NCBI GenBank assembly: GCA_020161775.1
Contig: JAIUOW010000007.1
Coordinates: forward strand, 148,633-212,632
From: Pseudomonadota bacterium
GTDB taxonomy: Bacteria; Pseudomonadota; Gammaproteobacteria; Burkholderiales; Burkholderiaceae_C
Direction of reading: 5' to 3'
Length of the DNA stretch: 64,000 nucleotides
The notes beneath the pieces were generated by a model that saw only the letters and a program-made list of their open reading frames with translations, was not told the origin of the DNA and ran no database searches. The position numbers were made by a program, and so were the translations under genes. Positions 7,311 to 61,626 of the stretch are shown piece after piece (within the stretch, counting starts at the first letter, position 1; every line of letters begins with the position of its first letter).

Positions 7311-7419
7311 AGAGCGCACATCCGCTAGGGGTGTTGCCCGGCTGCCATCGGCAACCGGGCGACTGAGAAAGTCCCTTTGAACCTGATTGAGGTAATCCTC
7401 GCGCAGGGAAGCAAGCTCT
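7311..7419 (+). promoter_or_regulatory. TPP (thiamine pyrophosphate) riboswitch
   Basis: The RNA carries the THI-element signatures in order: CTAGGGGTG at 7325-7333, CTGAGA at 7363-7368, and GAACCTGATTGAGGTAATCC with GCGCAGGGAAGC up to 7412. A GC-rich helix (TTGCCCGGCTGC...GGCAACCGGGC) fills the P3 arm. The closing stem may be AGAGC (7311-7315) with GCTCT (7415-7419). Downstream, GGTGGC (7422-7427) can pair with GCCACC (7450-7455) as a possible expression platform; there is no T-run, so control at translation is more likely than termination. It precedes the TonB-dependent receptor by about 80 nt. Confidence 0.93.
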
Positions 7420-7496
7420 CCGGTGGCGCCCTTTTCTCCCGGGCAACCTGCCACCCAGGCAAGCCGACCTGCCATTACGTTGGAAGACAAGACGTC

Positions 7497-9703: not shown

Positions 9704-9779
9704 TCCTCGATAGCTCAGTCGGTAGAGCGCCGGACTGTTAATCCGTAGGTCCCTGGTTCGAGCCCAGGTCGAGGAGCCA
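9704..9779 (+). tRNA. tRNA-Asn (anticodon GTT)
   Basis: A 76-nt cloverleaf. The acceptor arm pairs TCCTCGA (9704-9710) with TCGAGGA (9769-9775); the discriminator is G9776 and the CCA end is encoded at 9777-9779. The D-arm AGCTCAGTCGGTAGAGC and the T-loop GGTTCGAGCCC are standard. The anticodon loop CTGTTAATC gives GTT, which reads Asn codons AAC and AAU. Confidence 0.97.
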
Positions 9780-19963: not shown

Positions 19964-20049
19964 GTGTCTGCGGCCTGGCATTTCGCTGCCCTCCCCCACC
20001 GCCGGTAAGCGATGGGCTCGGCACGCGATAGCTTCGCCGTCCTTACGAG

Positions 20050-35900: not shown

Positions 35901-36626
35901 ATGCACGACTTTCTGCCGGACGAACCCATGATGACCGTGGCCGAACGCGCCGCCATCAACGCGGGGCCCTGGTTCTCATCACTGTCACCCACGCTGCGCC
36001 ACGACATCCTGCGCCACGCCCGCGCGCGCCGCTACCCTGACGGGCGGCTGATCTGCGCGCGCGGTGACCCGGCCCAGGAATGGAGCGGCGTGGCACGCGG
36101 CGCGGTGCGCGTGAGCGGCGGCAGCGCCGCCGGCAAGCAGGTGATCCTGACCTATGTGGCGCCGGGCGCGTGGATTGGCGACGTGGGCATCCTGGCCGGC
36201 GGCGTGCGCACCCATGACGCCTATGCCCACGGCGACACCACGCTGGTGACCGTGCAAAAGGCCGACTTGCACGCCATCCTGGCGCGCCATATGGAGCTGT
36301 ACGACGCGCTGCTGCGCCTGCAGGCGCGGCGGGTGCAGCACCTGTTCAAGGTGGTGGAGGAAGTCCACACCCTGTCGCTGCGCGAGCGCCTGGCCAAGCA
36401 GCTGGGCCGGCTGATGCGCTCCTACGGCGTGCCCTCGGCCGCCGACGGGCAGGAGGTACGCATCGGCCTGCAACTGGCCCAGGAAGACCTGGCCCAGCTG
36501 CTGGGCGCATCCCGACAGCGCGTCAACCAGCAACTGAAGGTCATGGAACGCGAGGAAGCCATCCGCATCCGCCCGGGCACGCTGGTGGTGCGGGACCCGC
36601 AGGCGTTGACCAGTTTGCCGGGGTAG
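35901..36626 (+). CDS. Crp/Fnr family transcriptional regulator
   Basis: A 241-residue regulator with an N-terminal cyclic-nucleotide-binding-like beta roll (about residues 25-140) and a C-terminal winged helix (VRIGLQLAQEDLAQLLGASRQRVNQQLKVMEREEAI). There are no Fnr-type cysteine cluster residues. A GAGG ribosome site lies 8 nt before the ATG at 35901; Met10 or Met11 is a less likely start. The ligand is unknown. The gene is divergent from the acyl-CoA synthetase gene, across 273 bp that contain a GC-rich bulged hairpin (about 35732-35753) but no recognisable operator. Confidence 0.88.
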   Translation: MHDFLPDEPMMTVAERAAINAGPWFSSLSPTLRHDILRHARARRYPDGRLICARGDPAQEWSGVARGAVRVSGGSAAGKQVILTYVAPGAWIGDVGILAGGVRTHDAYAHGDTTLVTVQKADLHAILARHMELYDALLRLQARRVQHLFKVVEEVHTLSLRERLAKQLGRLMRSYGVPSAADGQEVRIGLQLAQEDLAQLLGASRQRVNQQLKVMEREEAIRIRPGTLVVRDPQALTSLPG

Positions 36627-36661
36627 CTCTCCCGCTCGGCCTCCACACCTGCGCTTCTTCT

Positions 36662-36763
36662 GGATAAGGCGTGCGGGGTACTCTGCTCCGCGAATGTCCT
36701 CCGGCGGGCTGCGCCCGCCTCCCCCTTTATTTCGCTGCGCAGAGCACCCCACCCACCTTATCC
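36662..36763 (+). repeat. Dispersed hairpin element, copy 1
   Basis: A 102-bp element. Outer arms 36662-36686 and 36739-36763 are complementary at 21 of 25 positions. Between them is a core that is nearly the same in three copies of the window: 5' part CGCGAATGTCCTCCGG, a small hairpin CGGGCTGCGCCCG, and 3' part CTCCCCCTTTATTTCGCTGC. The arms share no sequence with those of copies 2 and 3. It stands 35 bp after the Crp/Fnr gene, with copy 2 facing it in opposite orientation 42 bp downstream. Confidence 0.88.
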
Positions 36764-36805
36764 CGCCAACACCGAGGATCGCCACCGGCTGCACGCCGCC
36801 ATGTA

Positions 36806-36913
36806 GCGGGTTGGCGGTGATGGTGCCCGGCGCAGCGAAATAAAGGGGGAGGCCTGTGCGCAGCACAGGCCGGAGGACATTCGCGGAGCCGGGCACCGTC
36901 AGCGCCAACCCGC
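36806..36913 (-). repeat. Dispersed hairpin element, copy 2
   Basis: A 108-bp element, inverted relative to copy 1. Outer arms 36806-36830 and 36889-36913 pair at 23 of 25 positions. Read on the minus strand the core has the same 5' part GCGAATGTCCTCCGG, a longer hairpin CCTGTGCTGCGCACAGG, and the same 3' part CTCCCCCTTTATTTCGCTGCG. The core can also pair with that of copy 1 (20 bp at 36685-36704 with 36870-36889, and 21 bp at 36720-36740 with 36830-36850), giving an even larger palindrome. It ends 20 bp before the stop of the TetR gene. Together the two copies fill the 307-bp convergent gap 36627-36933. Confidence 0.88.
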
Positions 36914-36933
36914 GGACCCGCGACCAAAAAGAC

Positions 36934-37497
36934 TCAAGCCGAAGTAGCAGCCCGAACCAACGCACTGGCCGGCGCAACCAGTTCACCAAGATGCGCCACG
37001 CGGTCCTGCTCGATGTATTGCAGCACCAGCTCATTGATGCCACCCACCACCGCCATGGCCATTTGCGGCGTGATGCCGCCCTGCAGGGTGCCCAGCATGA
37101 AATCGGCGATCTCCTGGTTCACGCGGCGGCGCGCCGCCAGGCCCGGCGCGCCCAGGCCCAGGATTTCAATGAACAGCGTGCGCATCAGGATCGGGTTCCC
37201 GGCCATGCAGCCCAGGTAAGCCGCCAGCGCCTGCTCCACCTGCGTCTGCCAGCCATGCGCCGGGTCAATCGCGCCGCGCAATACCTTCAGCGCGTTGCGG
37301 CTGGACGCCTCGTACAGTGCGATCAGGCAGTCGGCCTTGGTCTGGAAATGCTCGTAGAAAGTGCGCCGCGACACACTGGCCTCGCGAACGATGTCGGCAA
37401 TGGTGGTGTCGGCATAGCCTTTGGCGGCCACGGCATGAGCCATGCCCTCCAGCAGGCGGCTGCGGTGTTCATGCACTGGTGCGGCAGTTTCGGGCAT
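36934..37497 (-). CDS. TetR family transcriptional regulator
   Basis: A 187-residue repressor-type protein. The N-terminal helix-turn-helix is GMAHAVAAKGYADTTIADIVREASVSRRTFYEHFQTKADCLIALYE; the remaining helices form the ligand/dimer domain. It is divergent from the PF10118 gene, and the 90-bp gap holds two matching palindromes that are probable binding sites, so it most likely controls itself and that gene. The inducer is unknown. Confidence 0.92.
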   Translation of the reverse strand: MPETAAPVHEHRSRLLEGMAHAVAAKGYADTTIADIVREASVSRRTFYEHFQTKADCLIALYEASSRNALKVLRGAIDPAHGWQTQVEQALAAYLGCMAGNPILMRTLFIEILGLGAPGLAARRRVNQEIADFMLGTLQGGITPQMAMAVVGGINELVLQYIEQDRVAHLGELVAPASALVRAATSA

Positions 37498-61368: not shown

Positions 61369-61464
61369 TGACGGGCCTCCCCGCATGGTGAAGCGGCCAA
61401 CCGGGTCAGGTGGGGAACCAAGCAGCCCTAACTGTGGAGCCAGTGCCGGGGGTAAGGCTCGTCA
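61369..61464 (+). ncRNA. ffs: Signal recognition particle 4.5S RNA
   Basis: The ends pair perfectly: TGACGGGCCT (61369-61378) with AGGCTCGTCA (61455-61464), one G-T pair included. The hairpin tip has the universally conserved SRP domain IV: GGGTCAGGTGGGGAACCAAGCAGCCC, with the GGAA-type tetraloop region and the AAGCAGCC symmetric and asymmetric bulges that bind Ffh. Length is about 96 nt. A T/C-rich tract follows. The gene is divergent from dnaX, as in related genomes. Confidence 0.93.
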
Positions 61465-61516
61465 ACTTCCCCTCTTCTTCTTTGTTGTGGTCCGCCGACT
61501 TGCACTGCGGTGGCCC

Positions 61517-61626
61517 GCGGATTTCCGCCACGGGGTGGCCGCTTCCGCTCATGTCCCCCGGACCGGGCTGCGCCCGGCCCTCCTCCTTTACTTCGCTACA
61601 GCGGCCACCCCGTGGCGGAAATCCGC
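61517..61626 (+). repeat. Dispersed hairpin element, copy 3
   Basis: A 110-bp element with perfect 26-bp arms at 61517-61542 and 61601-61626. The core 61543-61600 matches copies 1 and 2: CATGTCCCCCGG, hairpin CCGGGCTGCGCCCGG, then CCTCCTCCTTTACTTCGCT. The arms are unlike those of the other copies. It lies in the 314-bp gap between ffs and the exported hypothetical gene; the remaining bases of this gap show nothing recognisable. Confidence 0.88.

Follow-up and report, generated by a model that had tools for sequence, protein, structure and literature searches.

In integron attC sites it is the folded single strand that matters, and the stems, which carry conserved boxes, vary in sequence. The REP sequences of bacterial genomes are described (PMC3116915, PMC2817692 and PMC3733652) as measuring 20-40 bp and carrying a tag, GTAG or CGTC, next to the hairpin, and REPINs are proposed to fold in single-stranded DNA (ssDNA) or mRNA. 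A term search of PMC3733652 for six genus or family names found none of them. The window analysed here, a stretch of 64,000 nucleotides, carries three hairpins with a common core that the initial annotation could assign to no described repeat family, an assessment that holds for Rfam 15 and for the literature searched. At the gathering cut-off, Rfam 15 gave no match to the element in the window and ten loci, the sub-threshold matches on 36600-36960 were all to microRNA models, and no published description of the element was recognised in a literature search conducted mostly outside subscription journals. Elsewhere in the window, Rfam matched a TPP riboswitch (7317-7426), an ilvH RNA (19971-20038) and a tRNA (9704-9776).

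The coordinates and sequences of the three hairpins agree with those first reported (Table 1). They had been taken for three separate elements; a covariance model finds at least 22 copies in the source genome, 18 of them in nine inverted pairs, and the first two hairpins are therefore the halves of a single composite, an inverted pair about a short spacer. This spacer has diverged from that of a paralogous composite on contig C8. Composites measure approximately 250 bp and hairpins approximately 105 nt. Arm pairing in the first two hairpins is 21/25 and 23/25, as described, and in the third it is 25/25 with pairing that continues outside the 25, where 26/26 had been given. The third hairpin starts 50 nt past an SRP RNA gene (61370-61466, Rfam match). 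The right-hand core motif occurs three times in the window with up to three mismatches (0.00 expected from shuffles); the left core motif alone, at three mismatches, is also found three times, which is non-significant (shuffle mean 1.28; 14 of 100 shuffles reach three).

Table 1 Coordinates of the hairpins, the spacer and the neighbouring genes in the window
Feature	Position	Strand	Details
Hairpin A of composite	36662-36763	-	Covariance-model match, 96.4 bits; arms 36662-36686 and 36739-36763; core 36694-36735; selected fold on minus strand
Composite spacer	36764-36806		43 nt; gap between both covariance-model matches
Hairpin B of composite	36807-36912	+	Covariance-model match, 110.7 bits; arms 36807-36831 and 36888-36912; core 36835-36880; selected fold on plus strand
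Single hairpin, partner not detected	61517-61626	-	Covariance-model match, 109.9 bits, at 61519-61624; core 61551-61596
Left neighbour, Crp/Fnr-type regulator	35901-36626	+	cNMP_binding and HTH_Crp_2 domains; context only
Right neighbour, TetR-family regulator	36934-37497	-	Convergent with the Crp/Fnr-type gene; context only

Inward from its 25-bp arms, each hairpin has a small internal loop, then helix 2, which is short, then a purine-rich internal loop that is unpaired, and finally an inner hairpin whose length varies. The core is nearly invariant, and the arms vary from copy to copy yet stay paired, which bears out what the three copies of the window had suggested. Pairing is confined to a single register, with a mean of 21.5 of 25 Watson-Crick pairs the other registers tried giving 6.9 to 8.4 (36 distinct copies from the source genome and family relatives), and it drops off past 25 bp. 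Read in the forward orientation, that of the initial annotation, covariation is above that of every one of 500 shuffles by four measures out of five, and on the fifth, the number of further pair types, 221 of 500 shuffles reach the observed value. In the opposite reading it exceeds every one of 500 shuffles on all five measures, and standard pairs make up 91.5% of cells, compared with 86.1% in the forward reading.

The mismatches within the arms show on which strand the fold is selected. The sample comprised 373 distinct arm pairs, all from strict-core copies, a strand-blind filter having kept those with at least 13 Watson-Crick matches among the 25 positions. At arm positions 1-23, the forward strand shows A.C 865 times versus G.T 47 times, C.T 158 versus A.G 12, and C.C 96 versus G.G 14, which on the complementary, selected strand read as G.U 865 versus A.C 47, G.A 158 versus C.U 12, and G.G 96 versus C.C 14. 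The corresponding ratios are 18.4, 13.2 and 6.9, compared with 1.78, 0.90 and 1.61 for randomly re-partnered arms. Over all 25 positions, the selected strand carries 894 G.U and 88 A.C mismatches, with the outermost position mixed. The bias is present in four of four subsets (the source genome, the loci of genomes G262 and G252, the loci of the broader search of named carriers, and the rest) and is reversed outside the arms, at positions -33 to -39 (forward A.C 195 and G.T 367, summed). The fold is thus selected on the complement of the strand originally written out; the proposal that selection maintains it stands, and the strand is the opposite of the one described. Each hairpin appears to be selected to fold on one strand only, as RNA or as ssDNA. 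A strand-specific mismatch test of this kind separates selection on a folded strand from the mere formation of palindromes, and it gives the strand as well.

Features of the core can be read on the same strand. Helix 2 takes the form GCGAA/TTCGC in 219 of the 373, GCTCA/TTCGC in 83, GCGGC/GCCGC in 16 and GCGAC/GTCGC in 9, with rarer others, and on the selected strand the GCTCA form would produce G.A pairs in tandem. The forward core has two Y positions, which are anticorrelated (CT 292, TC 74, TT 6, CC 1; n = 373), as would be expected of an A.G/G.A pair on the selected strand. In the window, the folding z-score of hairpin A is -8.07 on the minus strand versus -7.04 on the plus strand, and that of 36806-36913, containing hairpin B, is -10.89 on the plus strand versus -9.83 on the minus strand. 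The arms of the single hairpin are themselves fully paired, so that no strand bias is visible in it; by analogy with the family, its selected fold would be that of the minus strand.

The REP/BIME-like arrangement envisaged at the outset is supported in the wider set, in which 61 of 62 neighbouring matches are inverted in the order plus then minus; in 47 of these the spacer measures 16-58 nt. This count enters one site twice (L089/L201) and omits 15 of 133 and 3 of 41 matches, which are cuts at contig ends, weak partial matches and reverse-strand shadows. In the plus-then-minus order the selected strands point outward, with the 3' end toward the edge of the element; G075 and G179 each contain a pair in the opposite order. 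In the single-contig genomes G262 and G252, 48 composites were aligned, and they share the ends GTTCRGGGCG...CGCCCYGAAC, and the outer ends viewed in other genera differ from these. Among 55 composites no target duplication was found, no length or offset tried being clearly above shuffled flanks. Single hairpins keep 22.9 of 25 selected-strand pairs and paired hairpins 23.6 (11 versus 64 hairpins), and the single ones are not clearly decayed relative to the paired ones. At one locus of a Comamonadaceae MAG (L181, 5969-6500), three hairpins rather than two lie between carboxylase genes, followed by short tandem repeats.

The covariance model places the core well beyond the three sites of the window, in a family dispersed over many genomes. 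The exact core pattern occurs five times in the source genome and in 23 of 200 genomes of its family, the source genome included, and the backwards control gave none across the 200. Twenty of the 22 remaining pattern-positive genomes were searched with the model and all 20 gave matches, at least 2 to 47 each; two single-contig genomes, probably of Variovorax, contain at least 57 and at least 73. Named carriers among the matches listed, from a search that gave at least 119 stretches, 80 of them listed, include Variovorax, Hydrogenophaga, Rhodoferax, Acidovorax, Ramlibacter, Rubrivivax and Sulfurisoma. In surveys that included the source genome, the element occurred in at least 11 of the 250 genomes sampled from the order, which represent three families, and in at least 11 of 397 sampled from the phylum; of the latter, four belong to a family, f57, that falls in a different order of the same class. 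At six loci viewed in f57, the core is kept and the arms pair well near it, several losing the simple register further out. Similar copies sit on named Variovorax replicons, and G262 and G252 (the genus of G122) are for this reason probably Variovorax. Matches on plasmids were confined to three Variovorax replicons of approximately 1.2 Mb, no element was found in phages, and among viral contigs the strict core pattern was absent and a looser pattern occurred in one.

Comparison of relatives reveals both occupied and empty sites. A site that carries the element in G122, G262 and G252 lacks it in G222, G216 and G275, where the longest inverted repeats are 9 bp (G216) and 7 bp (G275), with none of 7 bp or more in G222; the 9-bp repeat may be a remnant of the element. 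Of 32 sites in G262, 26 match the flanks of an element in G252, four of them on one flank only. Twenty unshared sites were compared with fetched regions and both flanks were recovered at nine, which divide into clean absence (L354, L375 and L382), a deletion remnant (L372, L391 and L393) and other content (L336, L341 and L390). At L375 and L382 the flanks beside the gap differ as well, and the element-less site of L341 holds a terminator-like repeat, which has a similar counterpart next to the element in the other genome. At some orthologous sites, the arms in G262 and G252 are of different subfamilies (for example L338 and L373), which suggests that copies are homogenised within genomes.

The genic context was determined with a simple gene finder, against background gaps of at least 30 nt taken from the same loci. 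Of the 136 composites of clear context, 72 have tandem genes on either side, 40 convergent and 24 divergent ones, a further 14 that overlapped gene calls being left out, and the 366 background gaps are tandem (220), convergent (63) and divergent (83); convergent pairs thus look over-represented (40/136 versus 63/366). Among single copies in tandem context, the selected strand runs along the genes in 24 and against them in 23, a split that favours a role in DNA. Six genomes, belonging to five genera, have a composite with diverged arms 22-65 nt before hpaD, between hpaE and hpaD (gene identities established in the source genome), and an acyl-CoA carboxylase operon carries the element at seven loci, whose genera are partly known. 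A few other positions recur in a pair of genomes from separate genera (L049/L098 and L137/L190 are examples); at such shared positions the arms differ between genera and still pair. Most compared sites are unmatched across genera, with partial sampling of each genome. The window composite has no promoter-like site and no terminator-like site inside it, and the sole terminator-like site in 36400-37200 lies beyond the element, where the TetR gene ends.

The linked RAYT that had been proposed as a possible partner was not found. The RAYT domain, Y1_Tnp, is encoded by one or two genes in 16 of 20 element-bearing genomes, and no element lay beside it at any of 22 loci (21 Y1_Tnp genes, approximately 1.5 kb on each side, searched with the model at E up to 1). 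The remaining four of the 20 carriers gave no Y1_Tnp match, among them G020 with 24 copies and G096 with 11. A RAYT as the mobiliser is therefore unsupported by the flanks of the Y1_Tnp genes. In the source genome, a single RAYT-like gene (L093, contig C1, approximately 278-280 kb) is bounded by inverted GGGGTCAGATTCCAATT, ends that by eye are unrelated to the element. Five long-spacer pairs (L089, L090, L102, L195 and L091) were examined as candidate autonomous copies with a transposase between the hairpins, and open reading frames selected from them gave no Pfam transposase match. Between the two hairpins of L195 (6754-7397, a Brachymonas MAG) lies a TumE-type toxin-antitoxin pair (PF20126 and HVO_A0114), but the locus looks like a composite one of whose hairpins is truncated. 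A gene for a DUF2306 membrane protein lies between both hairpins of the composite at L089 (1385-1798, G020), whose contig is apparently the same as that of Xylophilus sp. Leaf220 (L201). No recurring neighbour gene stood out as a possible mobiliser when the largest clusters were inspected by eye, a minority of all clusters being annotated.

The explanation that we favour, tentatively and at something close to even probability, is an old, non-autonomous, high-copy intergenic repeat of REPIN/MITE-like kind, the folded single strand of which would be recognised by some enzyme. What this mobilising enzyme would recognise is the folded strand, most likely in the form of ssDNA, as proposed for REPINs, together with the purine-rich internal loop that it contains (GCGAARTAAAGGRGGAG / CCGGRGGACAT), and the arms would be free in sequence because only helix and loop would be read. 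Against mobility count the three deletion remnants among the nine two-flank sites, which are not insertions, the differing flanks at two of the three clean absences, and the fact that neither a transposition event nor an intermediate or enzyme was seen. Against a mobile repeat count also the differing outer ends in other genera, the opposite-order pairs, and the single hairpins that are not clearly decayed, since REPIN logic predicts that singles decay. The position kept between hpaE and hpaD suggests a host function. It is possible, although we are more doubtful of it, that the family represents an undescribed class of mobile element, with a structured purine-rich loop read on the folded strand by a new or unrecognised enzyme, copies that are homogenised and some that have been captured in catabolic operons. 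Helices free in sequence would then account for copies of different genera sharing almost nothing outside the core, and some copies would be lasting intercistronic elements in such operons. The main rival to a mobile repeat is a cis-acting RNA element, whose hairpin in the transcript would affect stability, processing or translation of the neighbours, with dispersal secondary and with the inverted pair giving one correctly folded hairpin for either direction of transcription. The selected strand tolerates wobble as an RNA would be expected to, and the hpaE-hpaD composites with their diverged arms, the seven carboxylase loci and the apparent excess between convergent genes agree with such a role; the even orientation of single copies, the composites between divergent genes, the window composite with neither a promoter-like site nor an internal terminator-like site, and the many sites unmatched across genera do not, and we consider it rather unlikely.

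An RNA intermediate, in which a reverse transcriptase would act on a transcript read from either side by recognising the hairpin close to its 3' end, would accommodate the outward-pointing hairpins, because a transcript of either strand would end with one, as well as the RNA-like wobble and the absence of target duplication; the reversed pairs of G075 and G179 run against it, and we hold it to be very unlikely. The strand bias disfavours strand-blind readings in general, including arm-to-arm copying, cruciforms and double-stranded palindromic binding sites. Copying between arms by template switching would keep palindromes with the fold unselected, and the paralogous composites on C7 and C8 do differ by neighbouring double changes within one arm pair, but copying is strand-blind and mismatches biased approximately 18:1, 13:1 and 7:1 make it highly improbable. 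Equally improbable are intrinsic or bidirectional terminators. The hairpins are GC-rich and over-represented between convergent genes, and the window's single copy lies after the SRP RNA gene, but a U-run is absent after the window and source-genome copies read, single copies show no orientation preference and composites also occur within operon-like gene runs; termination at the copies, which the initial annotation had raised, is thus not borne out. The same annotation had also considered insertion into existing palindromes such as terminator hairpins, with arms that belong to the target. Arms that differ from copy to copy would fit, as would the repeat at the empty site of G216 if it is not a remnant. 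Of seven element-less sites checked, however, only G216 and L341 have an inverted repeat that exceeds 7 bp, the other five having none, and the terminator-like repeat of L341 is not the element's arms. With most such sites free of an arm-like palindrome, insertion of this kind is not supported, and since the arms also pair over 25 bp in one register and are similar among copies of one genome, we regard it as the least probable account.

The repeat that we favour, whose folded single strand would be recognised, can be set beside the known systems. REPIN, REP and BIME sequences share with the element inverted hairpin pairs, an intergenic position, many copies and compensatory changes, whereas the element is built of hairpins of approximately 105 nt, with 25-bp arms free in sequence and a nearly invariant internal loop. 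Unlike in REP-RAYT systems, no RAYT was found beside it. Among 373 copies, the 8 nt on the 5' side of the arm contain a GTAG in 14 and a CGTC in 20, and in the source genome GTAG precedes 8 of 21 arms, those of the B hairpins. With bacterial MITEs it has in common a length of approximately 250 bp, dispersal, no recognised coding content and terminal inverted repeats within one genus; it differs from them in that the composites are without target duplication, what is conserved is a structured core in the interior, and the outer ends differ in the other genera read. As in attC sites, the folded single strand matters and the stem sequence varies, but the conserved part is the internal loop rather than stem boxes. 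With the RAYT, tag and target-duplication tests having failed, the element is not filed as a REPIN or as a typical MITE. Ordinary repeat finders see families poorly when their arms have little common sequence, and such repeats may be widespread and missed. The present family, with at least 57 and 73 matches in two genomes and with shared and unshared sites, offers a test system for both the mobiliser and a possible regulatory role of the operon copies. It is a real, selected structure on a dispersed inverted-pair repeat, and it is most like a REPIN or a MITE.
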